DNA from: Cognaticolwellia beringensis
GTDB taxonomy: Bacteria > Pseudomonadota > Gammaproteobacteria > Enterobacterales > Alteromonadaceae
Assembly: GCF_002076895.1 (NCBI RefSeq)
Contig: NZ_CP020465.1
Location: forward strand, 2,232,001 to 2,296,000
DNA length: 64,000 nt
Direction: 5' to 3'
Shown here: positions 1,356 through 40,584 of the stretch, one piece after another
Layout: each line of letters begins with the position of its first letter
How positions within the stretch are numbered: position 1 is the first letter of the stretch
The notes under the pieces: model-generated
The model's database searches: none
What the model was told of the DNA's origin: nothing
Seen by the model: only the letters and a program-made list of their open reading frames with translations
Made by a program: the position numbers and the translations under genes

Positions 1356-1991
1356 TTAAAACCATGTTTCAGGTATTACAATAATATCGCCAGGTAATAC
1401 ATCAACATTAGCTAATATTTCCCCATTTTTTATTAAGTCTTCAATAAATATGTTGTACTGCTTTTGCAGACCATTTTCGATTCGCACCAGTAGTGCACCG
1501 TTACCATTAGCAAACTCGGTTAAACCACCCACACGGATCATTACGTCTAATAATGTCATATGTTGAATATAGTTTACCGATTGGGGTTGAGCGGCTTCAC
1601 CAATAATACGTATTTGCTCACTAAAAGGCCCGACAAAATTATTTACCGTTACCGTTACTACTGGATCGCGTAAATAAGTTGCCAATATTACTTCAATTGA
1701 GCGAGCAAGTTCTGTTGGTGTTTTCCCTGAGACAGGTATATCTTCTACCAGTGAAGTGGTTATCATACCGTCTGGGCGAACGACAAACGTGCCTGAAACT
1801 TCAGGGTTGCGCCAAACAAAAATATTGACCACATCGCCGGCACCTATTAAATATTTGTATGAATCAACATCAACAGTATTCGACTGATGAAGCTTAGCAG
1901 TGGGTAATGTAGATGAGCTACATCCAGTTACAATATAGCCCAGCGCAAGAAATAAAATTGCTTTTAATGTAGTAGTCATGCGTTTTTCCAT
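1356..1991 (-). CDS. Polysaccharide export lipoprotein, Wza/XrtA type
   Basis: Outer-membrane export protein that should form or line the exit channel for the exopolysaccharide. The 211-residue protein has a lipoprotein signal with lipobox VTGC (Cys24). The polysaccharide export domain runs over about residues 45-120 (YLIGAGDVVNIFVWRNPEVS, then VRPDGMITTSLV). A SLBB-like ligand-binding segment covers about 126-170 (IRIIGEAAQPQSV, MIRVGGLTEF). The start at Met1 is backed by AAGAAGG seven bases upstream. It is short compared with full-length Wza, as are export proteins of exosortase A clusters. The chain-length gene follows 37 bases downstream, so the two are probably co-transcribed. The gene diverges from the sugar transferase. 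Confidence 0.92.
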   Translation of the reverse strand: MEKRMTTTLKAILFLALGYIVTGCSSSTLPTAKLHQSNTVDVDSYKYLIGAGDVVNIFVWRNPEVSGTFVVRPDGMITTSLVEDIPVSGKTPTELARSIEVILATYLRDPVVTVTVNNFVGPFSEQIRIIGEAAQPQSVNYIQHMTLLDVMIRVGGLTEFANGNGALLVRIENGLQKQYNIFIEDLIKNGEILANVDVLPGDIIVIPETWF

Positions 1992-2219
1992 GGTATTAAC
2001 CTTCTTATTTACAACTGTTTTTTGTATAAGCTATCAGATTGTATTTGATTTTTACATTTGATGCACATTATTTAATTTCTGTAAATAGATTGTAATTGTA
2101 GTATTTTAAATAGTCTAATGTTTACATTTACCTGTTAATCAATTCTAATATACAACTAAAATAATAAAAGTATCTAATGCTTGTCTATTTTTCTCACCAG
2201 AAAGGAATTTTCTAACCTT

Positions 2220-3629
2220 ATGTCTAGCCCTAAATTTCGTGATTTATCTGCGGGTAGCAAGTCTTTAGTGTTAATCGAGTTTGTCTGCTTTGCTGGCGCA
2301 CTTCTGCTGAGTTTGTATTTTAATAGTTTTTTACATTTTGTTGAACATGATACTCAGGCTATCGCATTAAACGTTTTGTTTATTCACGCGGTAGTTTTTG
2401 CGTTAATTGTACAGCTATCATGTTTGGCAATGGGGCTTTATGACTCAAAACTTAGAGAAAACTTGCGCGGAGTATTCAGACGATTACTGGTGTCGGTAGC
2501 TATCGGCTTTTTCATCGTTTCATTACTAAACCCTATTTATGGCTCAGGCGCATTAGCTATTGAGTTACTGGCTACGGCATCTTTAATTAGTTTGTTTATG
2601 GTGAGTGGTGTTCGGTATATTACCCTTCAAATAGATTTTTTTGGTTTAAATAAACGTAATATTCTAGTATTAGGCGCAGGAGAGCGCGCCTCAATTATAG
2701 AAAAACGCATGCGACGTGATGTCGACCGACAAGGCTTTTTCATGCACGGCTTTGTTGTTATGAACGGCGATGCCGACCATGGCATAGTTAACGAAAATAG
2801 AATCACTTTAGACAGTTCTTTAGTCAATTACGCATTAGAACACCAAATTGACGAAATTGTGGTCGCTAACGATGAGCGTCGCGAAAATCTTCCTGTTGAC
2901 GAACTTTTTGCCTGTAAAATTCGGGGAGTTGAAATAACTGAAATTCTCGACTTTATTGAGCGTGAAACGGGTCAAATTGCGGTAAATTTAATTTACCCAA
3001 GCTGGGTGATATATTCAAATGGTTTTGCTTCATCTAACCATTTGCGGAATACCTTAGATTGGGTGTTTAATGCTACTATGGGGTTTTTCTTATTTCTCGT
3101 TACATGGCCTGTAATGCTGATCACCGCGCTTTTAATTAAGCTTGAAGATGGTTTAAAAGCGCCAATTTTTTATTCTCAAGAGCGTGTTGGCTTAGATGGT
3201 CAAGCTTTTAATATTATCAAATTTAGAAGTATGAGAATTGATGCGGAAAAAAATGGTGCACAAATGGCATCGAAAAATGACGACAGAACAACAAGAATAG
3301 GTAAAGCTATTCGTAAATACCGCATTGACGAGTTACCGCAAATTTATAATGTAATGTTAGGTGACATGGGCTTTGTTGGCCCTCGTCCTGAGCGTCCAGA
3401 ATTTGTCCAACAATTAATTAAGAATATCCCCTATTTCAACGAACGCCATAACGTTAAACCCGGCTTAACAGGTTGGGCTCAATTGAAATATCCATACGGT
3501 GCAACAGAAAAAGATTCGCTAGAAAAGCTGAAATACGACCTATATTACATAAAGCACCGCAGCTTTATGTTGGATTTACTAATTTTAATAAGAACCGTAG
3601 AAATAGTGTTATTCGGCAAAGGCCGTTAG
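2220..3629 (+). CDS. XrtA-associated undecaprenyl-phosphate sugar phosphotransferase (initiating transferase)
   Basis: This enzyme would transfer the first sugar-1-phosphate onto undecaprenyl phosphate, starting each repeat unit. The 469-residue protein has four or so N-terminal membrane segments, a Rossmann-like middle region (NILVLGAGERASIIEKRM), a fifth membrane segment and the bacterial sugar transferase domain. That domain shows FYSQERVGLDGQAFNIIKFR, RKYRIDELPQIYNVMLGDM, FVGPRPERPEF and KPGLTGWAQL. It matches the TIGR03013-type transferase of exosortase A clusters. I chose the ATG at 2220, preceded by AAAGGAA twelve bases upstream. A TTG at 2181 would add 13 residues without a better ribosome site. 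A perfect hairpin follows the stop codon. Confidence 0.92.
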   Translation: MSSPKFRDLSAGSKSLVLIEFVCFAGALLLSLYFNSFLHFVEHDTQAIALNVLFIHAVVFALIVQLSCLAMGLYDSKLRENLRGVFRRLLVSVAIGFFIVSLLNPIYGSGALAIELLATASLISLFMVSGVRYITLQIDFFGLNKRNILVLGAGERASIIEKRMRRDVDRQGFFMHGFVVMNGDADHGIVNENRITLDSSLVNYALEHQIDEIVVANDERRENLPVDELFACKIRGVEITEILDFIERETGQIAVNLIYPSWVIYSNGFASSNHLRNTLDWVFNATMGFFLFLVTWPVMLITALLIKLEDGLKAPIFYSQERVGLDGQAFNIIKFRSMRIDAEKNGAQMASKNDDRTTRIGKAIRKYRIDELPQIYNVMLGDMGFVGPRPERPEFVQQLIKNIPYFNERHNVKPGLTGWAQLKYPYGATEKDSLEKLKYDLYYIKHRSFMLDLLILIRTVEIVLFGKGR

Positions 3630-4075: not shown

Positions 4076-5251
4076 ATGCCTTCATTATCAGACTTATTCA
4101 CCTTTGATTCAAACACTTTAGATCCTAGAATTACAAAATCTCTTTTTACTGCTGCTGATAGTCTCATCAATGGTGCGGCATTGACCTTAACCTCGATGGG
4201 AAGACACGCTGCTAGCTTGCAGGGTAAATCAGAAAAACACGCGATAAAACGTATCGATAGACTGCTTGGGAGTCAGCCTTTATATCAGAATAGGCAGTCA
4301 TTTTACCAGGACATTGCACGGCTGTTTATTACGACACCCCACCCACTTATTCATGTGGACTGGTCCACCGTCTACAACTATAACTTCGTCATGCTCAGAG
4401 CCGCCATTTCTATTGGAGGACGTGCAGTTACGATCTATGAGGAAGTTCATCCTGAAAGTAAACACACGAACCACCAAGTACACTTGAACTTCATTGCTAA
4501 TTTAAAAAAGATATTACCTGAAGATATTCAGCCTATTATATGCACGGATGCGGGCTTTAAAATCCCGTGGTTTAAAGCGATCGAGGCTCAGCAATGGTAC
4601 TGGCTTGCAAGGACAAGAGGCACTGTAAAATGCCAACGTCAAGGTGAAAGCGATTGGCATTATGTGAGCAAATGTCACCATCTTGCGCTCTCTATAGCAA
4701 GTGAGCTCAAAGGCGTAATCTTATCAAAGGCTCATCAATTTGTTTGTCGTGGTGTCTTATTCAAAGGACGAAAGATGTATCGCCATAAGCTTAATCGAAA
4801 GGGCGTAACCACAAAATGTAAAACCAATATAAAGAGTTCAAAGTCAGCTAAAGAGCCTTGGTTCTTAGTATCTAATTTACCTAGAAATACATTTAAACCG
4901 CAGCATTTAGTGAATATGTATAAACGAAGAATGGCCATTGAAGAATCCTTTAGAGACTGTAAAAATGAATACTATGGCTTAGGCTTGTCTCGTAGTTTAA
5001 GCCGTTCAGTAGAAAGGCTGCAGGTTATTTTACTGTTAAGTATGATGGTTCAATTTTATCTATATTGTGTAGGCAAGGCAGCGGAATCAGCAGGCTATCA
5101 TCGGCAATTCCAAGCAAACTCGGTGAAAACTAAGCGTGTGCTATCTTATGGGTATTTAGCGCTAAGGATCCTACAACATAAGCGGTATTATATATCGGAT
5201 AAGATGATAATCAGTGCAATGAAGGCACTGATTCATGAAAGTTTATATTGA
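4076..5251 (+). CDS. IS10-like transposase (IS4 family DDE), copy 1
   Basis: The 391-residue transposase should cut and paste the element. It aligns by eye with IS10 transposase over its whole length, for example HAIKRIDRLLGSQPLY, HVDWSTVYNYNFVMLRA, CTDAGFKIPWFKAIE, WYWLARTRGTVKCQ and SAKEPWFLVSNLP. The DDE residues are the Asp of VDWS, the Asp of TDAGF and the Glu of the YREK signature in YKRRMAIEESFRDCKNEYYG. The frame is open from end to end, so the gene looks active. Its product is identical to that of the inverted copy 31 kb away, which points to recent transposition or gene conversion. Confidence 0.95.
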   Translation: MPSLSDLFTFDSNTLDPRITKSLFTAADSLINGAALTLTSMGRHAASLQGKSEKHAIKRIDRLLGSQPLYQNRQSFYQDIARLFITTPHPLIHVDWSTVYNYNFVMLRAAISIGGRAVTIYEEVHPESKHTNHQVHLNFIANLKKILPEDIQPIICTDAGFKIPWFKAIEAQQWYWLARTRGTVKCQRQGESDWHYVSKCHHLALSIASELKGVILSKAHQFVCRGVLFKGRKMYRHKLNRKGVTTKCKTNIKSSKSAKEPWFLVSNLPRNTFKPQHLVNMYKRRMAIEESFRDCKNEYYGLGLSRSLSRSVERLQVILLLSMMVQFYLYCVGKAAESAGYHRQFQANSVKTKRVLSYGYLALRILQHKRYYISDKMIISAMKALIHESLY

Positions 5252-14448: not shown

Positions 14449-15381
14449 GTGTCGCAAGTATTAGTTTCTGTTGTTGTGCCTGTATATAACGGTGCGCAAT
14501 ACTTAGAAAAAACGGTTCAATCGATATTAGTTCAAGATTATGAAAATATTGAACTAATTTTGGTTGATGATGGCTCCAAAGATAACTCAAAAGCTATTAT
14601 TACCCAGCTTGCAATGCAAGACCCTCGGATTAAGCCATTTTTTAATAAAAATGGCGGTGTAGCAAACGCTAGAAACTTCGGTATTGCGCAAGCTAAAGGT
14701 GACTTTATCGCTTTTTGTGATCAAGATGACTTATGGCTACCAAAAAAACTTAGTCAGCAAATACCATTATTCAGCAATAATAACATTGGTCTAGTTTACT
14801 GTGGCGCAATTACTGATTATATTTTATATCAAAAACAATCAAAATCTGGTTTTAAAAATAAGCACAAAGGTCAGGTGTTTGAGCAATTAGTACAATTAAA
14901 TATGCTAACTTGCTGTACCGCTGTTGTTCGAACAAGTTATTTACAGCAAGTCGATGGTTTTGACGATGACAGGGCTTTAATGGGAGTCGACGATTGGCAT
15001 CTTTGGCTTAAATTAGCCATGGTTTGTGAATTCGATTTTGTTGCAGACTACCTCGCCGTTCACGTTTTTCATGGCGACAATTACTCATTAAACGATGAAA
15101 AAATGCATGAAGCAGAAGTGGTTTGCTTAAATAAAATTGAAACTATTGCCGCTACTCTCAATAAAAGTGCAAATTGGGCACTAATAAAGCAACAGTTGCA
15201 TATTAGGTATGCTAAATCATACATCTTTTCAGGTTTTTATAATTTAGCCGGCGATACTTTTATTCGCGCGCATCGAACTAAAAAAAACATTCCTGTTTTA
15301 TTAAAAGGTTGGTTCATAAAAGTAGTGCCAAATTTTGTTTGGAATATACTGCAAAAAACTAAACGTAAATTAGCCGCTTAA
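14449..15381 (+). CDS. Glycosyltransferase family 2
   Basis: An inverting GT-A transferase of 310 residues that should add one sugar to the lipid-linked repeat unit. Motifs are VSVVVPVYNGAQYLEKTVQS, LVDDGSKDNS, the metal-binding FCDQDDLWLPKKL and MGVDDWHLWLKL in the acceptor region. The start is GTG, supported by AAAAGGA seven bases upstream; no ATG lies at a better place. It begins a forward block running to 19301, separated by 106 bases from the next gene. Confidence 0.9.
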   Translation: MSQVLVSVVVPVYNGAQYLEKTVQSILVQDYENIELILVDDGSKDNSKAIITQLAMQDPRIKPFFNKNGGVANARNFGIAQAKGDFIAFCDQDDLWLPKKLSQQIPLFSNNNIGLVYCGAITDYILYQKQSKSGFKNKHKGQVFEQLVQLNMLTCCTAVVRTSYLQQVDGFDDDRALMGVDDWHLWLKLAMVCEFDFVADYLAVHVFHGDNYSLNDEKMHEAEVVCLNKIETIAATLNKSANWALIKQQLHIRYAKSYIFSGFYNLAGDTFIRAHRTKKNIPVLLKGWFIKVVPNFVWNILQKTKRKLAA

Positions 15382-15487
15382 TAATAGCTAACAATCCAAA
15401 GTCACAGGTCGTATTCTTTATGCACCATATATTATTTTCAGTAAGTGGATTGAAGCAATCAAGAAAAATAATAAAAGGTCTTCTTCG

Positions 15488-16681
15488 ATGAATAAAATAA
15501 AGCTTATTAGTGTATTAGTTATCAATTTATTTTTTTATATGCTCAGTAAGGTGATCCCTAAAAATAAAGATCTGTGGGTATTTGGTGCATGGTTTGGCCA
15601 AAAATATAGTGACAACCCTAAATTTTTCTTTGAATTTGTAAATGTGAATCATAGTGACAACACTAAAGCCGTATGGATCACTAAAAATTCGAACATTGTT
15701 AAAAACCTTCAGGAAAAAGGTTACTGTGTTTATCATGAGAGAAGCATTAAAGGCATTTGGCACCAACTACGTGCGAGCAAGGCTATTATTTGTCAGTCGC
15801 TACATGACGATTTATTTTCTCCTTGTATAGGCAAGAGAACAGAAGTTGTTCAACTGTGGCATGGTATTCCCTTAAAGAAAATAATGTTTGATGCTTTCAG
15901 TAAAAATAAAAGGCGTAAAAACCTAATCGGTCGCTTATTTGATTGGCTTACCCCTTACAATGAGCACCGAAACGATATTGTTATCGCTACTGGCGAACTG
16001 ACAAAAAATATGCTGGCTAAAGCATTTAAAGTCCCTACAAATAAAGTGTTAACCTGCGGTTTTCCTCGTAATGATGTTTTTTTTGAAAATGTTGAAAATG
16101 TTGAAAATGTTGAAAATGTTGAATTTAAATGTATTTACATGCCAACATTTCGAGGTGGAATAGCTTCTGAATGTGATTTGTTTGAAAAATATGGCTTTGA
16201 AATTAAGCAAATGGAAGCTGAATTGACAAAACATAATATTCACCTAACACTTAGAATGCATCCGGTTAATAAACCACCTAGTCGAATTGTTGAGCAAATC
16301 AAAAACTCAAAAGTTATAAAATTAGATAACGGTGATGACATATATCAAAGTATTCAACAATACGACTGTTTAATTACCGATTACTCAAGCATCTATTTTG
16401 ACTTTTTACTGTCTAACAAGCCTATTGTTTTTGCACCGTTCGATTTGGAGTTTTATAAAAAATGCGAGCGTGCTCTTTATTTTGAATTCGAGGACGTAAC
16501 GCTCAAGCCTTATTGTTATAGTTGGAATAATATTTTAGAAAGGCTGATTGAGCTCAAGAATGAAAGCCAATCGTCAGAGTATCAAAAGCAGTATACGTTT
16601 TTAAAAGCTAAGTTTCATAATGATAATGTACAAGGCTCTTCGCCATTCTCAAGTCAACTTTATAATGAATTAACCAAATAA
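15488..16681 (+). CDS. CDP-glycerol glycerophosphotransferase family protein
   Basis: A TagB/TagF-like enzyme of 397 residues that should transfer glycerol-phosphate (or a similar polyol phosphate) from the CDP form to a glycan. Motifs are EVVQLWHGIPLKKIMFD, containing the catalytic-type His-Gly, then TFRGG, LRMHPVNKP and DCLITDYSSIYFDFLLSNKP. An N-terminal hydrophobic stretch may associate it with the membrane. Near the middle is a run of four ENV tripeptides encoded by four exact GAAAATGTT repeats. The cytidylyltransferase that would make its donor follows 21 bases downstream, which strongly supports the assignment. Confidence 0.9.
   Translation: MNKIKLISVLVINLFFYMLSKVIPKNKDLWVFGAWFGQKYSDNPKFFFEFVNVNHSDNTKAVWITKNSNIVKNLQEKGYCVYHERSIKGIWHQLRASKAIICQSLHDDLFSPCIGKRTEVVQLWHGIPLKKIMFDAFSKNKRRKNLIGRLFDWLTPYNEHRNDIVIATGELTKNMLAKAFKVPTNKVLTCGFPRNDVFFENVENVENVENVEFKCIYMPTFRGGIASECDLFEKYGFEIKQMEAELTKHNIHLTLRMHPVNKPPSRIVEQIKNSKVIKLDNGDDIYQSIQQYDCLITDYSSIYFDFLLSNKPIVFAPFDLEFYKKCERALYFEFEDVTLKPYCYSWNNILERLIELKNESQSSEYQKQYTFLKAKFHNDNVQGSSPFSSQLYNELTK
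16085..16120 (+). repeat. Four tandem 9-bp repeats (GAAAATGTT) inside the glycerophosphotransferase gene
   Basis: Four exact copies encode Glu-Asn-Val repeated, followed by a further Glu codon. Copy-number change would alter the length of a surface loop but keep the reading frame, as nine is a multiple of three. Confidence 0.95.
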
Positions 16682-16702
16682 AAAAAACAAGGATATAAGG
16701 TT

Positions 16703-17098
16703 ATGAAAAAGGTACTTACCTTTGGTACATTTGATTTATTTCATATTGGTCATTTACAGATATTAAAACGTGCAAAAGCCTTGGGAGGATATTTAATCGT
16801 CGGTGTATCAACCGATGCGTTAAATTTCTCTAAAAAACAACGCAACCCTATATGTAGTCAGCAGCATCGCATGGAAATTATTCAAGAATTAAAATGTGTA
16901 GATGAAGTGTTTTTCGAAAATTCACTTGAATTAAAACGCCAATATATCATTGACACTAAGGCTGATATATTAGTGATGGGTGATGACTGGAAAGGCCGTT
17001 TTGATGAGTTTAAGGATATATGTGAAGTTATTTATTTGCCGAGAACACCTTCAATTTCAACCACTGAAATTATCGAAATAGTTAGAGATATTAGCTAG
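16703..17098 (+). CDS. Glycerol-3-phosphate cytidylyltransferase (TagD-like)
   Basis: Makes CDP-glycerol from CTP and glycerol-3-phosphate in the cytoplasm. The 131-residue protein has the nucleotidyltransferase motif GTFDLFHIGHLQILKRA with the HIGH signature, followed by LIVGVSTDALNFSKK. VMGDDWKGRFDEF and the ending RTPSISTTEII correspond to the RTxGISTT motif of the family. Length is normal for TagD. It directly follows the glycerophosphotransferase gene with a clear AAGGAT ribosome site, so the two form a donor synthesis and transfer pair. Closely related enzymes use other polyol phosphates, so glycerol is the best but not the only guess. Confidence 0.9.
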   Translation: MKKVLTFGTFDLFHIGHLQILKRAKALGGYLIVGVSTDALNFSKKQRNPICSQQHRMEIIQELKCVDEVFFENSLELKRQYIIDTKADILVMGDDWKGRFDEFKDICEVIYLPRTPSISTTEIIEIVRDIS

Positions 17099-17223: not shown

Positions 17224-17331
17224 ATGACTATTAATCTGGTCTTTTTGTTTATAAAAAAAAGTGTTAGCCTTTTATTGTACCCACTGACTTTAATTTTAGT
17301 CCCATACACCATCCTAGCGAGTATTAATTAG
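17224..17331 (+). CDS. Small hydrophobic peptide, 35 residues, coupled to the downstream chain-length fusion
   Basis: ATG preceded by GGAGAG at normal spacing opens a 35-codon frame that begins MTINLVFLFIKKSVSLLLYP and ends LASIN. Nearly the whole peptide is hydrophobic except for a Lys-Lys pair, fitting a single membrane segment. Its TAG stop shares its last base with the GTG start of the next gene (TAGTG), a typical re-initiation arrangement. The downstream GTG has no ribosome site of its own other than sequence inside this frame. It could be a real small membrane partner of the co-polymerase or only a leader for coupling. I know no named family. Confidence 0.6.
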   Translation: MTINLVFLFIKKSVSLLLYPLTLILVPYTILASIN

Positions 17332-19301
17332 TGTCCTTCAATCGGAATGTAGATGCAATATCATCTTTATATCAAGACCAAAATAAAGAACTAGATTCCA
17401 ACGTTCAAAACGAAATATTACAAACAAAAAAATGGAAAGTGCTGACAGGTACTTTCTTATTTTTTCTTATTTTATCGTTGATTTTTATTTGGACGAGAGA
17501 AAGTGTGTTTCAGAGTCAGGCTACTATTCAGTTTTCCACAGTTCAAGTGGTCGGTGGAAAGCTGTCTTCTCCTCTATTGCTAGACAGTTTACAAAACCAG
17601 CAGCGCCTCACCAGTAACAGAATATTAAAAGCCGTTAATTACAGCATACGCCATAATTACAATATACAAAGTAATGTAGATCTACTGAGTAAAATGCTAA
17701 GTGTTGAACTACAAAGTGGTCAAATTATTAATTTAAAGGCAACAGGCAGCAACCCTGAGCAATTGAAACCAATTCTGACAGTTTGGTTAGAGGAGTACCT
17801 TAAAGCTTTTAGCGTAGAAAACGATATTAATAACACTGACAGTATATTAACACTGAGCACTATGCTGGAGGCTATAGAAGATAAAATATCGCAGCAAAAA
17901 ATGGCATTAGTTACCTTTAGTCAAGATAACGATATTGTTTCGTTTGAGCGTAACGAAAATAAAATTTTGAATAAAGTTAAATCGATAGAAAAACTACTGC
18001 ATGCAGCTGAGCAAGACCACCTTAACCAGCAAGAAATAGTTAATCGTATCAACTATGCTGAAAAAGAAAATAGCTTAATTGTGCACCCTAAAGATGAAGC
18101 TGCTATAGCAATGGTTAGGCAAAATATAGCTAATATTGAAAATCAACTTGCTGAATTATCTGAGAAATACACACGTAAATATATGGAGAAAGATCCTAAT
18201 ATAATCTCGTTGCAAAAGTCGCTAGTAAATTTTCAAGATCAATTAGAAAAAGATAGCCTATTAAGTCACACTCTTTTCGTAAAAGAAGCTAAAAACAATT
18301 TGCTGGTGGCAAAAGGTAAAGTGGGTCTCTTAAGCGAGCAGCTAAATACCCTAAATAAAGAAGCACAAACCTTTAATCATAATTTAAAAGAATATGTTCG
18401 TATGAACGATTCATTGAATCAGTTAGTAACACAAGCGCAAGGCTTAAAAGATAGCTTGCTAGAGCAAGAGATGCTGCAAGTAGGAAAGCCTAAGTTTACC
18501 GTTTTAGAATATCCGTTTGTGCCTAGTTATCCTATTGCACCTAATAATCAAAGAGACTCTTTAATAGCCCTGTTAATTTCGGCGATAGCGGCACTATTAG
18601 CGCTATTTTTGTTTAGCTATATAGTACGGCAGAAACAGCCTTCAACTGTTTTTTCAAACTATACCGTGGTACCCAACGTTGACATAGGCGAGAAGCGGCA
18701 ACGGCTAAATCAACAAGAGCTTGAAGCACTAGAAAACCAAACCGCACAAGTGCTACTTGAACAAAACGCTGTAATTGATAATTTTAGACTGTTAAGTACT
18801 GACGAATGTGAAAAATTAGTAAATTTTGCCAATAAGCAAGGAAAACTGGTTATTTTGTTAGTATTAAGCGGCGTTAATATTAAAGAGCTATTAGTAATTA
18901 AATTAAAAGACTTTGATATAGAAACAAACACGCTAAAAGTTAACGGGGCGTTCGCCAGAAATATAGCATTAACAAATGAAGTTAGCGTGCTTGTTAAAGA
19001 CGTTATGCGATATAAAAGCACTCAAGACAGCCTGTTTGATAATGATTATTCGCTTGACGAACTTGCACATCTAATAGCCAATAGCGCACACGACGCAGAG
19101 TTAACTGAACCAGAAACCATTAGCCTAGAAAGCTTGCGACATACCTACCTTACGTATTTATTAGAACAAGGCGTTAAGTTGAATGAGCTAGAGAAAATAG
19201 CAGGATATATTAACCCTGCTCAGTTAGCGCTTTACCGTAAAAATAGAATTAACACACCGTTAAAACATACAGAAGTTAGTACTATTTACCCAATGCTTTA
19301 A
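17331..19301 (+). CDS. Wzz-like chain-length protein fused to a degenerate tyrosine-recombinase-like domain
   Basis: A 656-residue protein. Residues 37-54 form the first membrane segment. About 60-400 are a periplasmic Wzz/GumC-type region with long coiled coils and the YPFVPSYPIAPNNQRDS approach to a second membrane segment at 408-432. The cytoplasmic C-terminus, where Wzc-type proteins carry a tyrosine kinase, instead resembles the catalytic domain of XerC/XerD recombinases at about 488-638. LSGVNIKELLVIKLKDFDI corresponds to the XerD GLRVSEL region, and SLESLRHTYLTYLLEQG to the HxxR box. LALYRK corresponds to the Tyr region. The first Arg is Asn516, the box-II His is Glu600 and the third-motif His is Tyr626; Arg603 and Tyr635 remain. 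It is probably non-catalytic. The start is GTG, coupled to the upstream peptide. Confidence 0.8.
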   Translation: MSFNRNVDAISSLYQDQNKELDSNVQNEILQTKKWKVLTGTFLFFLILSLIFIWTRESVFQSQATIQFSTVQVVGGKLSSPLLLDSLQNQQRLTSNRILKAVNYSIRHNYNIQSNVDLLSKMLSVELQSGQIINLKATGSNPEQLKPILTVWLEEYLKAFSVENDINNTDSILTLSTMLEAIEDKISQQKMALVTFSQDNDIVSFERNENKILNKVKSIEKLLHAAEQDHLNQQEIVNRINYAEKENSLIVHPKDEAAIAMVRQNIANIENQLAELSEKYTRKYMEKDPNIISLQKSLVNFQDQLEKDSLLSHTLFVKEAKNNLLVAKGKVGLLSEQLNTLNKEAQTFNHNLKEYVRMNDSLNQLVTQAQGLKDSLLEQEMLQVGKPKFTVLEYPFVPSYPIAPNNQRDSLIALLISAIAALLALFLFSYIVRQKQPSTVFSNYTVVPNVDIGEKRQRLNQQELEALENQTAQVLLEQNAVIDNFRLLSTDECEKLVNFANKQGKLVILLVLSGVNIKELLVIKLKDFDIETNTLKVNGAFARNIALTNEVSVLVKDVMRYKSTQDSLFDNDYSLDELAHLIANSAHDAELTEPETISLESLRHTYLTYLLEQGVKLNELEKIAGYINPAQLALYRKNRINTPLKHTEVSTIYPML

Positions 19302-19471: not shown

Positions 19472-20554
19472 TTATATAAAATAACGCTTTAACTTCATAG
19501 AAGGCTTTTCTATAAAATTCCATGATATAGCTGATAAAACTATAACTATAGTACCAGCTAGAATAGTCATCTCAGTTGGGCTAATGCCAATAATGTTAAT
19601 TGCTATGGTTTGCTGAATTGGCCAAGCGTAGATATAGGTTCCGTAAGAAAAGTCACCCATTGTATTGTATTTTAATATCTTGCCCTTAGGTAAGTAAGCA
19701 GCGCAAAGTACTAAATAGGGCATAGTGAAAATATACATAACAAAGAATGTTGCTTTATTTAAGTACAGTGCAAATATCAGCAACGATAAAATAATCACTA
19801 CCCATTTAAGGTTGAGAGAAATATGATTTCTTAGGACATATATCCCGCCCCCAATAAAAAAAGCCGATGCAAACCTGAAAAACTTATAATAAAACCAATG
19901 AAAGTTCTCATTAAAGTGAAAATGGAAATATAGGGCAGTACTGCTTATTGCGATAAGTACTATAATTGCTGGAACAATTGGAAAAGTGATATTCACCTTT
20001 TTTAATACGTAGCTCAAAACACCCATACCTATAAGTACTACATACATTCGTAGCTCCCATGGTAAGGTCCATAATGAACCATTAACACTTGAATCTAATG
20101 GTGCGTTATAAAATACCCCAGGTAACTCTTGATAGTCGGTTATTATAATTGTTGAGTTGTATATTATAAAATTTAACAGCGTAGAATCTTGAAGGTAATT
20201 TTGTAGTGAAAAGCTAGTTAAATAAGCGCCTAAAATTACGCAAAAAAGTACAGAAACTAAAAGGGCAGGAAAGATTCTCAATATTCTTGATACGATGAAA
20301 AATTTCAAATCTGTACGAACCAGCAAACTTCGAGTAACTAATAAACCGCTTGTAATAAAAAAAATATCTACGGCTATAGAGCCTAGGCTAATGCCTAATA
20401 AGTTTTTTATTGGCTCTAACTCTCTATTTCCTAGAGCAAGTGCATAACTGTGGCTAACAATAACGGCTAGTGCTGCTAGCATTCTGATTAAATTGAAGTT
20501 GTTGTTTTTACTATCTATAACGCTGCTAAGTGCTATATTATTTTGATAGCTCAC
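19472..20554 (-). CDS. Membrane acyltransferase family 3 (OafA/WecH-like)
   Basis: Integral membrane O-acyltransferase of 360 residues with about ten membrane segments. It would transfer acetyl (or another acyl) groups to the polysaccharide. The N-terminal family motif NFNLIRMLAALAVIVSHSY provides the conserved Arg24 and His35. DIFFITSGLLVTRSLL and the late MGDFSYGTYIYAWPIQQ are typical. No periplasmic SGNH domain is fused. It follows the polymerase gene by one base in a four-gene reverse block (GNAT-like, flippase, polymerase, acyltransferase). Confidence 0.9.
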   Translation of the reverse strand: MSYQNNIALSSVIDSKNNNFNLIRMLAALAVIVSHSYALALGNRELEPIKNLLGISLGSIAVDIFFITSGLLVTRSLLVRTDLKFFIVSRILRIFPALLVSVLFCVILGAYLTSFSLQNYLQDSTLLNFIIYNSTIIITDYQELPGVFYNAPLDSSVNGSLWTLPWELRMYVVLIGMGVLSYVLKKVNITFPIVPAIIVLIAISSTALYFHFHFNENFHWFYYKFFRFASAFFIGGGIYVLRNHISLNLKWVVIILSLLIFALYLNKATFFVMYIFTMPYLVLCAAYLPKGKILKYNTMGDFSYGTYIYAWPIQQTIAINIIGISPTEMTILAGTIVIVLSAISWNFIEKPSMKLKRYFI

Positions 20555-20555
20555 A

Positions 20556-21890
20556 TTACAGCCCTAACTTTAAAGAAATATAAACAGCAACTATAATAGA
20601 CCAGCAATAAATCATCGATCTAACCGCAACATGATTAGAAAAGTGTATAGCATATTTTGGATTCAGCTTTACTAGCCTAATATGAGACGCGATTGCCATA
20701 CCTAAATAAATAAATAACAAAAGCGTGAACATTCTACTGATAAAAAAGCCTGTTATCATAAAGCCCACCAAGGAAAAGAATAGGGTTTTGTTAAGAAATA
20801 ACTCAGCTTCTTCTTCAGGTGGTGCCACTGTTTTTTCACTGTCGATTAGTTTTTTATGGCTAATTTGATCGCGAATAAACAAATATCCTGTTAACGCTGT
20901 AAAAATTAATGCACCACCCCATAAAGAATAACCAGGCACGCCTAGCTCCGCGGCAACATGAATATATGAATTGTGTGCCACTAAGCCATGTTCTTCAAGA
21001 AATTGGCCCATACCAATACCAAACACAGGGTTGTGTAATAGCATTAGCACCCCTGCATACCAGGCCTCTAATCGGCCATCGGCAGAAGCATCGATACTAC
21101 TTTGTAGTGATGCAATTACCGTAGCAGCAATAGGGGCTAGCACGACAATAATCATAAATAATTTTGGCCCTGCATTCATCACGATAAAATACACCGCAAC
21201 TAAAGCACCAGCGCCGAGCATAGTACCGCGAGAGCCTGTTAAATAAATGCCGTAGAATAGCGCCGCTAAAACGCTAAACATTATTATTTTACTGAACGCT
21301 TGGCTTTTTTTATAAAAATAAATAGCAAATGGAATGTTCATAACTAAAAACATACCTAGGTCGTTAGGGTCATTAAAAAAACCTAAATACGTAATGCGCC
21401 GCTCACCAAGACTAATATAGCCAACGGAGTATGTGCCTAATGCCCAACCTGCACCTTGATATGCCGTTTGTTGTACATGACCATTGTGTACCATAAGTAA
21501 GGCAGCAAAAAGGCAAACAGCCATAAGTATGTGCTGGCGTTTAATGCTAGTTATACAGTTTGAATATAAAAAAAGCGGAAACAGTGCACTAACCAATATA
21601 CGCTCAGACTGGTCAATACCAATCATGCCTGAGCCGTTCAAAAAACCTGAGAATATAATCAACGGCACTAACGCTAAAATCATCCAATGCTGCGGGTACA
21701 TTTTTATCGGTCTTTGCATGGCAACAGTGGCGCCGAACGCAAGAATGATAAAAACCTTTATCGTTATCCACTCAATACTTGTTTGAAACATTTCATGTGG
21801 GCGAATAAGCACTGAGGCAGTATATAAAAATAAAAAGAAGAAGCCTAACGGCGAGTCATCTTGTACATTTTTTTGGAAATGACGAGCCAT
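20556..21890 (-). CDS. O-antigen polymerase/ligase family protein (Wzy-like)
   Basis: A polytopic inner-membrane protein of 444 residues with the Wzy_C/O-antigen ligase pattern. It has multiple membrane segments and a large periplasmic loop. GSRGTMLGAGALVAVYFI is followed by DGRLEAWYAGVLMLLHNP and GIGMGQFLEEHGLVAHNSYI, which contains the conserved His-Asn-Ser. In this locus it is the best candidate for the polymerase that joins repeat units. Exosortase A clusters also carry O-antigen-ligase relatives thought to glycosylate exported proteins, so either role is possible. AAAGGAA lies upstream of the start, and the flippase gene ends four bases before it. Confidence 0.88.
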   Translation of the reverse strand: MARHFQKNVQDDSPLGFFFLFLYTASVLIRPHEMFQTSIEWITIKVFIILAFGATVAMQRPIKMYPQHWMILALVPLIIFSGFLNGSGMIGIDQSERILVSALFPLFLYSNCITSIKRQHILMAVCLFAALLMVHNGHVQQTAYQGAGWALGTYSVGYISLGERRITYLGFFNDPNDLGMFLVMNIPFAIYFYKKSQAFSKIIMFSVLAALFYGIYLTGSRGTMLGAGALVAVYFIVMNAGPKLFMIIVVLAPIAATVIASLQSSIDASADGRLEAWYAGVLMLLHNPVFGIGMGQFLEEHGLVAHNSYIHVAAELGVPGYSLWGGALIFTALTGYLFIRDQISHKKLIDSEKTVAPPEEEAELFLNKTLFFSLVGFMITGFFISRMFTLLLFIYLGMAIASHIRLVKLNPKYAIHFSNHVAVRSMIYCWSIIVAVYISLKLGL

Positions 21891-21893
21891 GTT

Positions 21894-23417
21894 TTAAAGT
21901 TCCTTTATAAATTTTTGCTTAATATTGGCAGGCATACGTTCAACAGCATAAGTTAGCAAAGTCTTTTTAATGGCCTTATCAAGTAGCAATATCCAACAAA
22001 CAACAACAATAAAAGGAAAAGCTAACGTGGCGGACATTAAAAACTCTAACCAAGTATCAATAGCTAAATAGTCTAATAAATAACTGCCTGCTATGCCTAT
22101 GATAACGGTAATAAGCACCGACTTTGATAAACACCAATAAAGCCCGCGCATATTAAAATTATTGTATTTTTTAAACAATACTATTTTGGCAAAAACATTA
22201 AAAATAAGGCTATTAACAACACCACCTGCAGCCATACCAATAAGACCAAATTTCAAACCTAAAAATATAGTCAAAGTAAGCCCTAAAACAACTGACGCAA
22301 TAGTGATAACTGAGATATATTTGTGATTCGCCTGGGCAAATAAAACCGTATTAGCAGAGCTACTAAAAGTAGCAAACAAAGCTGAAACCACATACAAATA
22401 CAGTAAATTAATCGCGTATTCAAATTCTTGACCTACCCATAAAAGAATAAAAACTTTACCAAAAATAAACAGCGATAAAAACAATACAGTGGAAGAGAAC
22501 AAGTTAATACGAGTAGTTTGATTAAATAGCAGTTCCATATTCTCATTGCGAGCGACTTTTTTATTAAATAAAGGGGAAAACACGCCGGTAATTGAACTAA
22601 CAAATGCCGAAGTATGCATGATCAAATTACTGGCAATGCTGACTAAGGCTAAAGACGATAGATCAAATAATTGCGTAACGATTAGTGGACGTGATTTAGT
22701 ACCTACAGTATTGGCAATACCATTAATAACCAAGTGTTTTGAATAGGAAAATAAATCGATGACTTCTTTTTTGCTGGCGAGTTTAAAACTAAACCTTAGG
22801 TCTGGGAATAGTCGTTTAGCATAATAAATTTTCAACGTATTGGTTAAAACATCACTAGCGAGTGTTGCAACTACAGCGCCCCAAATATTTAAGTCAGACA
22901 AGAGTAAAAACACCATAACAGCTTTTACTATCGCGTTTAATGACGATATGTTTGCATCAATATCGAAACGCAGCATACCGGAAAAAATGCCATGAAAAGG
23001 GTTCATCATAAACCCCCAAAGCACCTTGACTGACAGTACAAGTAAAATATCAACTAAGGTAATTTGGTCTAAGCCTTCAACCCCAAAAATAGCCGGCACA
23101 GTGGTTAAGCCAATTAAGATTAAAACAGACAAACCACCTAAAACCGAAAAAAGTACCAAGCCGGTAGAAAAAATCACGTTAACACGCTTTTTATCGTTTA
23201 GCTCTAAAGCTTGCACTATTTGGCGTTGAATCGCTTGCGGAAAACCTAGGTCAACAACATTAAACCAGCCTAATATGGATAAAATTAACAGCCATAAGCC
23301 ATAGTGGTTACTGCCTAATTCATTAATAAAAAAGGGCGTAAGTAAAAAAGACGTTATTACGACAATTCCACGTTCAAGAAACCGAAATAGCGAGCTAGTA
23401 AGTAATTGTTTTTTCAT
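21894..23417 (-). CDS. Oligosaccharide flippase (Wzx-like)
   Basis: A MATE/MOP-superfamily transporter of 507 residues with about fourteen membrane segments. It would flip the lipid-linked repeat unit to the periplasmic side. The N-terminal sequence FRFLERGIVVITSFLLTPFF and GSNHYGLWLLILSILGWFNV are typical of the polysaccharide synthesis family. I chose the ATG at 23417; a TTG seven codons upstream is possible, but neither has a strong ribosome site. It is directly followed by the polymerase gene, as expected for a Wzx/Wzy pathway. Specificity is unknown. Confidence 0.9.
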   Translation of the reverse strand: MKKQLLTSSLFRFLERGIVVITSFLLTPFFINELGSNHYGLWLLILSILGWFNVVDLGFPQAIQRQIVQALELNDKKRVNVIFSTGLVLFSVLGGLSVLILIGLTTVPAIFGVEGLDQITLVDILLVLSVKVLWGFMMNPFHGIFSGMLRFDIDANISSLNAIVKAVMVFLLLSDLNIWGAVVATLASDVLTNTLKIYYAKRLFPDLRFSFKLASKKEVIDLFSYSKHLVINGIANTVGTKSRPLIVTQLFDLSSLALVSIASNLIMHTSAFVSSITGVFSPLFNKKVARNENMELLFNQTTRINLFSSTVLFLSLFIFGKVFILLWVGQEFEYAINLLYLYVVSALFATFSSSANTVLFAQANHKYISVITIASVVLGLTLTIFLGLKFGLIGMAAGGVVNSLIFNVFAKIVLFKKYNNFNMRGLYWCLSKSVLITVIIGIAGSYLLDYLAIDTWLEFLMSATLAFPFIVVVCWILLLDKAIKKTLLTYAVERMPANIKQKFIKEL

Positions 23418-23515
23418 TGAATGGTATAGTAGCTTCAATCAGAAAATTATAAGGAAAAAGTAAGTTAATGCGCTAGCTGACTTCAAGTTTTTATAGTAAT
23501 AAGTGTTTATAACAT

Positions 23516-36459: not shown

Positions 36460-37635
36460 TCAATATAAACTTTCATGAATCAGTGCCTTCATTGCACTGA
36501 TTATCATCTTATCCGATATATAATACCGCTTATGTTGTAGGATCCTTAGCGCTAAATACCCATAAGATAGCACACGCTTAGTTTTCACCGAGTTTGCTTG
36601 GAATTGCCGATGATAGCCTGCTGATTCCGCTGCCTTGCCTACACAATATAGATAAAATTGAACCATCATACTTAACAGTAAAATAACCTGCAGCCTTTCT
36701 ACTGAACGGCTTAAACTACGAGACAAGCCTAAGCCATAGTATTCATTTTTACAGTCTCTAAAGGATTCTTCAATGGCCATTCTTCGTTTATACATATTCA
36801 CTAAATGCTGCGGTTTAAATGTATTTCTAGGTAAATTAGATACTAAGAACCAAGGCTCTTTAGCTGACTTTGAACTCTTTATATTGGTTTTACATTTTGT
36901 GGTTACGCCCTTTCGATTAAGCTTATGGCGATACATCTTTCGTCCTTTGAATAAGACACCACGACAAACAAATTGATGAGCCTTTGATAAGATTACGCCT
37001 TTGAGCTCACTTGCTATAGAGAGCGCAAGATGGTGACATTTGCTCACATAATGCCAATCGCTTTCACCTTGACGTTGGCATTTTACAGTGCCTCTTGTCC
37101 TTGCAAGCCAGTACCATTGCTGAGCCTCGATCGCTTTAAACCACGGGATTTTAAAGCCCGCATCCGTGCATATAATAGGCTGAATATCTTCAGGTAATAT
37201 CTTTTTTAAATTAGCAATGAAGTTCAAGTGTACTTGGTGGTTCGTGTGTTTACTTTCAGGATGAACTTCCTCATAGATCGTAACTGCACGTCCTCCAATA
37301 GAAATGGCGGCTCTGAGCATGACGAAGTTATAGTTGTAGACGGTGGACCAGTCCACATGAATAAGTGGGTGGGGTGTCGTAATAAACAGCCGTGCAATGT
37401 CCTGGTAAAATGACTGCCTATTCTGATATAAAGGCTGACTCCCAAGCAGTCTATCGATACGTTTTATCGCGTGTTTTTCTGATTTACCCTGCAAGCTAGC
37501 AGCGTGTCTTCCCATCGAGGTTAAGGTCAATGCCGCACCATTGATGAGACTATCAGCAGCAGTAAAAAGAGATTTTGTAATTCTAGGATCTAAAGTGTTT
37601 GAATCAAAGGTGAATAAGTCTGATAATGAAGGCAT
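36460..37635 (-). CDS. IS10-like transposase (IS4 family DDE), copy 2
   Basis: Amino-acid sequence identical to the transposase of copy 1 (391 residues, DDE residues in VDWS, TDAGF and the YREK box). With both copies intact, each end of the 31-kb glycan region is potentially mobile. The same AGCGCTTG/CAAGCGCT foldback is present ahead of its start at 37636-37698. Confidence 0.95.
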   Translation of the reverse strand: MPSLSDLFTFDSNTLDPRITKSLFTAADSLINGAALTLTSMGRHAASLQGKSEKHAIKRIDRLLGSQPLYQNRQSFYQDIARLFITTPHPLIHVDWSTVYNYNFVMLRAAISIGGRAVTIYEEVHPESKHTNHQVHLNFIANLKKILPEDIQPIICTDAGFKIPWFKAIEAQQWYWLARTRGTVKCQRQGESDWHYVSKCHHLALSIASELKGVILSKAHQFVCRGVLFKGRKMYRHKLNRKGVTTKCKTNIKSSKSAKEPWFLVSNLPRNTFKPQHLVNMYKRRMAIEESFRDCKNEYYGLGLSRSLSRSVERLQVILLLSMMVQFYLYCVGKAAESAGYHRQFQANSVKTKRVLSYGYLALRILQHKRYYISDKMIISAMKALIHESLY

Positions 37636-37983: not shown

Positions 37984-39117
37984 ATGAACAAAAATTTTGC
38001 TTTATTATTCAGTTTTTCATTATTGATTATGGCTGGTTGCTCTGAGTCTGATCAGGCATACAACGAAGTTAATGATAGTGAATTGATAAAAGCTTCAGCT
38101 GAAATTAATCGGCAAAACTTCGACGATTTTCCGTTTCATGATGTGCCAGAGTGGCGCTATGATGTTGCCGAATACCAAGGCCCTTATTCTGAATCGGGTG
38201 AGTATTATCAAGAGCAAAATATTATTGCCCCCGCTGCGTTAAGAAACACTGTGCCCATTGGTCAAGGTGATTGGCTGGTTGCAGAACTTTATACCCGAAC
38301 AGAAAAGCCTATTGTGCTTGATTATATAGATGTTGTACCTGACCCCATTAATGCTAAGAACCAAGTGCTAAAAATTAGTACCCCAGATCATACTGATGGT
38401 GTTGTGCTGCGTTCTAAAAATCCATTACCACCAAAATATCGTATCAGTTTAAAAATTGGTTTTGCTAATTACGGTAATGAAACAAAGCTCAATGGTTATA
38501 ACGACGGTACTGAAAGTGCTGAGCCTTGGAGGGCGTTATCAAGTGTTGGCCATAACGGCTTTTATTGGTTAGCAATACTAGATAGTCCCCCTAAACCTCA
38601 TAATAATATTTGGATACATCATCATCGAAAATTTGTCATTGATAGCTGGAACAGGAAAGACTTTAATCATACGGTAAATGTGATTGCACTCGATGGAAAA
38701 AGTGAAACCCATCAGGCGTTTGGTAAAAAATTTATTAGTTATGTTGATGGCGGTTGGCAAAAAATATCTGACGTACCGGTTGATTATTACCTACCTGATG
38801 AATGGTATACCGTTACTTTTACGCGTACGGCTTTATATTATGAATATGCGATTGAAGGCCGATTTAAAAACGCTGGGCAAACTATATATACCGATAGAAT
38901 AGATTATCGAAAAAATTGTATTTATCATTACAATCAAACGCCAGAAGAGCTAGTGCCCGATTGCATTGATAATAGGCAGCAAGTTTTTTCGGGGAAAAAT
39001 TTTACAGCGTGGCCTAGTGGTAGTGCTTATCCAGAATATTTTATGTTTGGTGAACCCCATATTAATTATTATGAAGGCAGTGTTTTAGTTGATGATATTA
39101 CCTTCGAGGTTTTGTAA
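37984..39117 (+). CDS. Lipoprotein with probable concanavalin-like carbohydrate-binding or lyase fold
   Basis: A 377-residue lipoprotein (lipobox IMAGC, Cys19). I do not recognise a named family. The mature protein is rich in beta-type sequence with aromatic and His residues: HNGFYWLAILDSPPKPHNN, IWIHHHRKFVIDSWNRKDF, EWYTVTFTRTALYYEYAIEG and the ending VLVDDITFEVL. That pattern recalls jelly-roll lectin/glucanase and alginate-lyase-like domains, but no catalytic signature can be claimed. The ATG is preceded by GGAGAGGG; an in-frame TTG further up lies over this ribosome site. Its 3' end overlaps the convergent exosortase gene by 33 bases. A glycan-binding or glycan-cleaving role at the outer membrane is inferred from context. 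Confidence 0.6.
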   Translation: MNKNFALLFSFSLLIMAGCSESDQAYNEVNDSELIKASAEINRQNFDDFPFHDVPEWRYDVAEYQGPYSESGEYYQEQNIIAPAALRNTVPIGQGDWLVAELYTRTEKPIVLDYIDVVPDPINAKNQVLKISTPDHTDGVVLRSKNPLPPKYRISLKIGFANYGNETKLNGYNDGTESAEPWRALSSVGHNGFYWLAILDSPPKPHNNIWIHHHRKFVIDSWNRKDFNHTVNVIALDGKSETHQAFGKKFISYVDGGWQKISDVPVDYYLPDEWYTVTFTRTALYYEYAIEGRFKNAGQTIYTDRIDYRKNCIYHYNQTPEELVPDCIDNRQQVFSGKNFTAWPSGSAYPEYFMFGEPHINYYEGSVLVDDITFEVL

Positions 39118-40584
39118 TTCAGCTTTACATTGACGTTGTTGACAAGGTATAAATTTCCAATGCAGCTTGGTCTGATTAATATTCTTAGCCGCCATAGTTA
39201 ACCGGGCTATTTTAAATGCTCTAAGTGACCCAAACTGTTGTTGGTTTATTTCATAACTGGCAACAATTACCGCCGCTTTACCTGCCTTAAATACGATATG
39301 TGTTTTCTGGTTTTGATCTACATCTTCATTTATAGATTGCCAACCATTAGGGATTAAATCATTCTCGTAGTAACTTGGCTTACCGTCTAACTCTTTACCA
39401 TTAAAGAAATAGGTAAGCTCGACAATTCCGCTGTCTTTTGAGGTTAACTTGCGAGTAACAAAAGCATAAAAATGAATTTGTGGCTTTATTTCAAATGCGT
39501 CATCACTGGTTAAATTACTATCGTCAGGAGCAAGTATCAGCATGGTGCTGACAGTGGTTGATGACAAAGCCAGTAATACTAATAAAACAGCTAAAGCACG
39601 CTTGTTGGTGTAGCTTTCAACTTGTGATGTGTTTATATGTTCAGTTGATTCTGGAAGTGAGTCTGAATCTGGTGCTGTTAAATCAATATCAGCACACTTA
39701 TTACCCCACCAAAATAAAATGAACATAAAAGGTACGAACAAATACCAGCCAAAGGTATTATGATCTTCCATTAGGCTACTCTCCATATTGGTATAGTCAC
39801 CAATTAATATGAGTGCGGTTATTCTTATCCAGTTAGTCAGTAGCGCTCCAAAAATAGCGAGGGCAAAAAAAACAAACGCCTTTTTGGCATTTTTAATATA
39901 TAGAAACCTGAAGAGTGTGCTGATCGCTAATGAAACGATCATGTATCTTAAACCACTACAGCCGTCGGCTATTTCAAATACGCCCGCAGGAATAGTAACA
40001 AAGTTACCTTCTACATAAGTCGGCACACCAGTAAAACTCATAAAGTAGGTGACTACGCTGACTGATATTTCTTGTAGTATATTGGTCAGCATGCCCCAAA
40101 CAGGCATGATAAAAATTAAAAATATGCTAGGGAAAACTATATACCGGTTCAATTTATAAAGCATATTAATGCTAGTGACTAAAACTGCTAACAGAGAGCA
40201 CCAGTAACCTAAACTAATTTGGGCGTTGCTCGTTATGAATAATGCTAAACAAGAACAAATAAATATGACTGTTGCAGGAAATGATAATTTTTCTCGAAAA
40301 TTCAACTTGCCTGCTTTTTGCAGTATATAGAACAAATATAGAGAAATAATGGGAATTAAGTAGGCGTGAGAGTATGTACCGTCATCAAAACTATGGCGCC
40401 ATAAAGTCACCAAAATAGGCATGTTTAATAATGAAACGGTGAAAGAAATGAGCAAAATCCCTAAAAGCGGAGCTTTAAAGAAAGTACTGAAGATTTCAAT
40501 GAGTTTATTCAATTTTATCATGCGTCTTAATTTATAATTATCAGGTGAATAAATGAAAAGTTGATTATAATGATAAACTTCCAT
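39085..40584 (-). CDS. xrtA: Exosortase A with EpsI-like C-terminal domain
   Basis: A polytopic transpeptidase-like protease of 499 residues that would cut PEP-CTERM proteins at their C-terminal sorting signal. The exosortase part (about 30-295) has about eight membrane segments. The catalytic set is Cys209 in ADGCSGLRYM, Arg254 in NWIRITA and His275 in MEDHNTFGW. After a hydrophilic linker and one membrane segment (330-352) comes a periplasmic EpsI-like domain to the C-terminus (YFNGKELDGKPSYYENDLIP). Many exosortase A proteins have this fusion. The start at 40584 or an internal Met at 40521 are both possible. It diverges from the TPR lipoprotein gene and converges on the lectin-like gene. 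Confidence 0.93.
   Translation of the reverse strand: MEVYHYNQLFIYSPDNYKLRRMIKLNKLIEIFSTFFKAPLLGILLISFTVSLLNMPILVTLWRHSFDDGTYSHAYLIPIISLYLFYILQKAGKLNFREKLSFPATVIFICSCLALFITSNAQISLGYWCSLLAVLVTSINMLYKLNRYIVFPSIFLIFIMPVWGMLTNILQEISVSVVTYFMSFTGVPTYVEGNFVTIPAGVFEIADGCSGLRYMIVSLAISTLFRFLYIKNAKKAFVFFALAIFGALLTNWIRITALILIGDYTNMESSLMEDHNTFGWYLFVPFMFILFWWGNKCADIDLTAPDSDSLPESTEHINTSQVESYTNKRALAVLLVLLALSSTTVSTMLILAPDDSNLTSDDAFEIKPQIHFYAFVTRKLTSKDSGIVELTYFFNGKELDGKPSYYENDLIPNGWQSINEDVDQNQKTHIVFKAGKAAVIVASYEINQQQFGSLRAFKIARLTMAAKNINQTKLHWKFIPCQQRQCKAELQNLEGNIIN

Follow-up and report, generated by a model that had tools for sequence, protein, structure and literature searches.

Architecture of the gene and its product

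The stretch analysed here, hereafter called the window, consists of 64,000 nucleotides of Cognaticolwellia beringensis (contig NZ_CP020465.1, positions 2,232,001 to 2,296,000 of the forward strand), and all coordinates are positions in this window. An open reading frame (ORF) on the + strand at 17331..19301, with a GTG start, encodes a protein of 656 amino acids in which a polysaccharide co-polymerase (PCP) carries a degenerate tyrosine-recombinase domain as its cytoplasmic tail; the gene is present as one intact copy in the 4.66-Mb genome. The first transmembrane helix, at about residues 33-56 (17427..17498, +; helix 23-54 in the structure model, the alignment to Wzc running from residue 22-24 on), is followed by a periplasmic PCP domain of residues 57-405 (17499..18545, +), with an alpha/beta base and long helices, and by a second transmembrane helix of residues 406-433 (18546..18629, +; helix 406-435 in the full-length model). 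Pro404, just before this second helix, is invariant in the 56 sequences that underlie the per-residue family counts. The cytoplasmic linker (residues 434-484; 18630..18782, +) is variable and probably disordered, with a predicted local distance difference test (pLDDT) value below 50 over residues 435-485. Sequence profiles, alignments and a model of the tail then place a degenerate Xer-type catalytic (CAT) domain at residues 485-640 (18783..19250, +), and the C-terminal segment (19251..19298, +), with a motif of an aromatic residue or His followed by Pro at residues 653-654, stands at the position of the alpha-N segment of recombinases.

As expected for a PCP, two membrane helices lie on either side of the periplasmic part, which combines an alpha/beta base and long helices. 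The fold match of this half is strong despite a Pfam Wzz score under the cut-off, the match to residues 33-101 being in the expected place and below the detection threshold (10.8 bits versus a cut-off of 25.5, E 0.65). The fold, together with the neighbourhood of the gene in its own genome, suggests that the 656-residue protein controls polymer length.

The cytoplasmic tail has the fold of a recombinase catalytic domain

The tail is matched at residues 488-638 by Pfam Phage_integrase, over the cut-off (E 7.6e-11), and by the NCBIfam XerA model (E 2.6e-15, below the full-length cut-off of the model), so that its likeness to a recombinase is not due to chance. Profile-profile comparison (hhalign) gave a probability of 98.8 (E 5.3e-17), and the structure model also has the CAT fold, XerA being the closest solved relative by Z-score. 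When the full-length model was compared with solved structures, no recombinase appeared among the best 50 matches listed, the list being filled by the PCP half. Wzc, a PCP-2a protein with a BY-kinase, has in this position a cytoplasmic P-loop tyrosine kinase with a tyrosine-rich tail, whereas the tail described here matches the CAT domain of recombinases, and the Pfam and NCBIfam scans at E up to 10 listed no kinase family for it. Among proteins matching in the PCP half only, 4 of 33 fitted a Walker-motif pattern, which was too strict to serve as evidence. The PCPs without a kinase, KpsE and WzzE/FepE, are not known to carry a comparable folded domain in the cytoplasm. The Pfam scan, which reached E 10 and drops most weak matches, listed neither a core-binding family nor DUF3504, and the stretch preceding the tail is made of linker, membrane helix and PCP instead of the core-binding domain of recombinases.

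Loss of the catalytic set and probable remodelling of the old active site

A preliminary description of this gene, made from its sequence, had reported three changed catalytic positions in the tail, Asn516, Glu600 and Tyr626, with Arg603 and Tyr635 kept. These five assignments hold, Asn516 standing for Arg-I, Glu600 for His and Tyr626 for His/Trp, and the loss is larger than described: the turn that carries the catalytic Lys in recombinases is shortened too, around residues 538-539. The complete R-K-H-R-H/W-Y set (Arg-I, Lys, His, Arg-II, second His and Tyr) is present in all 18 control recombinases. These were picked by similarity to the tails from 20 profile hits, without the duplicate L099 and the weakly matching L022, and they include near-copies (L013, L021). 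Among 23 tails, Arg-I and His are found in 1 each, the second His in none, Arg-II in 22 and Tyr in 22, while all 23 show a gap at the Lys because the turn is shorter.

The catalytic set is lost whichever column is taken for Lys. Residue 538, which the PDB profile alignment with XerA sets opposite the catalytic Lys, is a Lys or an Arg in 3/56 members, and residue 541 aligns with a second conserved Lys, not with the catalytic one. When Lys is taken at 538, two of the six catalytic positions are kept in 45/56 members, one in 6 and three in 5; taken at 541, the corresponding figures are 48, 6 and 2, three positions being the maximum in either case. Arg-II is kept in 51/56 members and the nucleophilic Tyr in 55/56. 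A single member of the 56 (L004, genome G312) has Arg at Arg-I, and it is without Lys and without both His.

At and near the former active site, the family has conserved residues of its own: Asp588 (55/56), Tyr606 (56/56) and Glu621 (53/56), as well as Tyr626 and Phe541, each in 20 of the 28 non-redundant members. This conservation suggests that the active site has been remodelled and is not decaying. At the C terminus, position 653 holds Y, H or F in 56/56 and is followed by Pro654 in 45/56. A His-Pro near the C terminus is also seen in some Xer-type recombinases (L058, L064, L070, L073, L103), and the motif of the tail may correspond to theirs.

Distribution, origin and selection

Three protein searches, each scoring the 7999 candidates sharing most words, gave the same 33 database proteins with this architecture (624-670 amino acids, 94-100% coverage), their named hosts being Colwellia, Paraglaciecola and unclassified Alteromonadaceae; distant members were consequently found by genome searches only. 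Full-length members occur in 8/394 genomes of the order and 6/369 of the class, own genome counted, and among the matches listed by the phylum search, full-length ones came from only 3/398 genomes (G172, G000, G714), all found before. One extra member, beside an alkyltransferase-like (ATL) gene in G1108, is cut by the edge of its locus (L120). The sampled genomes with members amount to 14, from six families (f1, f20, f82, f118, f194, f201), a figure that may miss members since the genome searches with alignment queries scored at most three first-look candidates per genome. The fusion of a chain-length co-polymerase with a recombinase-like domain put forward in the preliminary description is thus borne out by sequence profiles, profile-profile comparison and structure model, all of which place the tail within the tyrosine recombinase fold, and by homologues with the same architecture in the database and in the sampled genomes.

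Maximum-likelihood analysis puts the 23 tails on one side of a branch and the 18 recombinases on the other (support 100/99); the tree has long branches, but this split is present in all 200 bootstrap trees. The simplest reading would be one fusion event, and as far as tested the family is of single origin. The 23 tails have a mean net charge of -6.0 (range -11 to +1) versus +8.7 (3 to 13) for the 18 recombinases, and their Lys and Arg content is 8.0% versus 14.3%.

The mean pairwise identity among 18 representatives is 34.1% in the tail, 30.2% in the periplasmic part and 16.8% in the linker. The ratio of nonsynonymous to synonymous substitution rates (dN/dS) was sought for nine gene pairs and was computable for seven, six of which gave tail values of 0.141, 0.152, 0.213, 0.223, 0.113 and 0.066; the tail is retained under purifying selection. 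In the Colwellia strain of locus L035, compared with L033 and L034, dS is 0.43 in the PCP half and 0.77-1.05 in the linker and tail, as if this gene had a mosaic history among Colwellia relatives, its tail having been exchanged by recombination.

Genomic surroundings

In C. beringensis itself, the gene is part of a polysaccharide locus of the exosortase (XrtA/PEP-CTERM) type. Upstream, at 14449..17098 (+), are a GT2 glycosyltransferase, a CDP-glycerol glycerophosphotransferase and a cytidylyltransferase, the last two of which we take to be TagF-like and TagD-like, and the convergent neighbours at 19472..23438 (-) encode an acyltransferase, a Wzy_C ligase/polymerase and a Wzx-type flippase. A separate canonical chain-length determinant of the XrtA system (TIGR03007; 2..1318, -) is cut by the window edge, an XrtA-system export protein (TIGR03027, - strand) and the initiating sugar transferase EpsB_2 (TIGR03013, + strand) lie at 1356..3629, and the exosortase is at 39085..40584 (-; TIGR02602 above cut-off, XrtA model below cut-off). 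The separate tyrosine kinase of this locus is encoded just left of the window. The TagF-like ORF holds a perfect 9-bp tandem repeat (16083-16123, 4.6 copies) with its unit in frame, and the locus contains two DDE/IS4-type transposase ORFs (4076-5251 and 36460-37635).

Three other Colwellia strains (L033, L034, L035) conserve the upstream block and largely the downstream block. In ten distinct Alteromonadaceae-type loci (L036-L041, L043, L079-L081), both DTW-domain and ATL genes are near the PCP gene in 7, ATL only in 1, DTW only in 1 and neither in 1, and ATL follows PCP in most Paraglaciecola-type loci. A GH16 glycosidase gene is near PCP in L036, and acyltransferase genes in L042. Another family has a U32 peptidase gene ahead of PCP in 3/3 loci and a cyclophilin gene behind it in 2/3; distant members adjoin unrelated genes, except in L074, where a glycosyltransferase gene is adjacent. 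This comparison points to a PCP that mostly stands alone and that in Colwellia is part of a polysaccharide locus. The earlier view of a membrane protein setting polymer length keeps its PCP fold and needs qualification for the relatives outside Colwellia whose loci were read, in which the gene is mostly away from polysaccharide clusters.

A functional coupling between PCP and ATL was weakened by an ATL search of 59 genomes, in which 57 had a match and 30 loci were read. DTW and ATL stand without PCP in 5 of these (L107, L108, L111, L116, L119), PCP adjoins ATL in 5 (L110, L112, L114, L117, L120), and neither DTW nor PCP is found within 1.5 kb in the remaining 20. Within the family, the PCP gene is present next to ATL in some genomes and absent there in others.

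Proposed role of the recombinase-like tail

That the tail is a dead recombinase domain on a PCP can be held as practically certain. Taken together, the data are best explained by a conserved family of polysaccharide co-polymerases in which an exapted Xer-type CAT domain, at the place of the Wzc tyrosine kinase, would serve as a protein-protein interaction module, a reading to which we give a probability of about 0.55. A function of the tail in contacts with protein rather than with DNA is likely. The binding or regulatory module suggested in the preliminary description would suit a domain that has lost both catalysis and positive charge and is still under selection. In certain marine bacteria and related ones, a recombinase domain that has lost its active site has apparently been kept by evolution for a new, non-DNA job.

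In its most specific version, the proposal is that the tail would help to build or gate the PCP ring. According to passages of PMC8285477, Wzc octamers hold together because each subunit docks its C-terminal peptide into the kinase next to it, and phosphorylation dissolves the ring. Passages of PMC3646895 report CAT-CAT contacts through the C-terminal alpha-N segment in Cre and HP1-Int and, by mutant data, in XerC/XerD; for Cre, IntI and HP1-Int, docking of the alpha-N helix into a groove occurs in trans, and removing this helix from XerA alters how stable its higher-order assemblies are. The Wzc kinase and the recombinase CAT domain can both close an assembly through the C terminus: after the swap of a kinase module for a CAT module, the ring would still close through its C terminus but would be freed from ATP and tyrosine phosphorylation. 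Such a ring closed by C-terminal exchange is a tentative idea, less likely than not. The most far-reaching view, which we consider doubtful, sees in these proteins a new PCP class, whose dead Xer domain would form by C-terminal exchange a DNA-free cyclic ring under the membrane; the BY-kinase ring of Wzc would have given way to it, and chain-length control would no longer depend on tyrosine phosphorylation.

Several points weigh against the interaction module in general or the ring in particular. Apo-XerA docks its alpha-N helix in cis and not in trans, according to the same passages (PMC3646895). The tail model is without any helix of at least four residues after Tyr635, so that an alpha-N docking element is hard to make out, and the C-terminal motif could serve another partner. 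With no clear alpha-N helix in the model, a protein-protein role would be the likely one and the ring exchange its most interesting specific form. MrpR, a bacterial dead recombinase, binds DNA (passages of PMC10516654). The chain-length role is itself putative: the gene outside Colwellia is mostly away from polysaccharide genes, and the Pfam Wzz model scores under its cut-off. Finally, one gene pair gave a tail dN/dS of 0.551, at a dS of only 0.03, and two of the nine pairs were saturated.

A possible, if rather unlikely, alternative is that the tail acts through its remodelled active-site pocket as an adaptor for another cytoplasmic protein, with no role in ring assembly; the partner might be a glycosyltransferase, a phosphatase or a tyrosine kinase, for instance the one associated with XrtA. 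The conservation of the pocket residues agrees with this, as does the separate kinase encoded just left of the window, but there is no constant partner gene, the neighbours differing among Colwellia, Paraglaciecola-type and distant members.

It is improbable that the tail is a membrane-tethered DNA-binding regulator through which an envelope protein would touch the chromosome or a promoter, on the model of the SPbeta repressor MrpR. The phage regulators MrpR/YopR and SroF do have, like the tail, a recombinase fold without recombinase function, and MrpR also keeps the Tyr and a Glu; however, MrpR represses by binding DNA and has a core-binding domain and the Lys (passages of PMC10516654), whereas the tail has neither and is fused to a membrane protein. 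A linker and a membrane helix precede the tail, which has lost Arg-I and both His in nearly all members; its charge and the lack of a core-binding family among those listed at E up to 10 would argue against DNA binding of the MrpR type. The same features, namely the lost Arg-I, His and His/Trp, the shortened Lys turn, the absence of a detected core-binding domain, the acidity and the membrane anchor, set it apart from XerA, XerC, XerD and IntI. The DUF3504 proteins, domesticated Crypton recombinases, are likewise exapted with most catalytic residues lost, but they are animal proteins, many of them transcriptional regulators, and they have lost Tyr and Arg-II, the two residues kept in the tail (passages of PMC3212892).

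The tail is very unlikely to be a tolerated, functionless vestige of an accidental fusion: catalysis is lost and one pair has a dN/dS of 0.55, but the members form one clade across six families, with invariant residues, a tail identity not below that of the periplasmic part and dN/dS values of 0.07-0.22 in the other 6 computable pairs. A still active site-specific recombinase was rejected, with hardly any probability left to it; Arg-II and the nucleophilic Tyr are mostly kept and public records use the label 'tyrosine-type recombinase/integrase', but 0/56 members have more than three of the six catalytic positions, no core-binding domain was listed, the tail is acidic, and passages of PMC3646895 report that a single Arg-I mutation already inactivates XerA. 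Two genes joined by a sequencing or assembly error near 18650, as the preliminary description had considered, is refuted by the same join in the 33 homologues, from several data sources, and in the 14 sampled genomes, no point having been found in its favour.

No description of a PCP-recombinase fusion was found in the open-licence literature, most subscription papers being outside this coverage, in line with the earlier statement that no such system was known. The passages of PMC10734457, seemingly close, concern separate proteins and not a fusion, and those of PMC8138268, a tyrosine recombinase survey, hold nothing on it. The dead recombinases known from the passages cited above are the phage repressor MrpR (PMC10516654) and the animal DUF3504 proteins (PMC3212892), that is, a DNA-binding repressor and proteins of which many are transcriptional regulators. 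If the proposed module is real, a bacterial host protein would re-use the recombinase fold for a non-DNA job, and a co-polymerase with a different domain in the kinase position would offer a natural test of what the Wzc-type kinase is for. In public records, several members are named 'tyrosine-type recombinase/integrase' and others ExoP-type transport protein, each name fitting one half of the protein, and those with the first label could be miscounted as markers of mobile elements.
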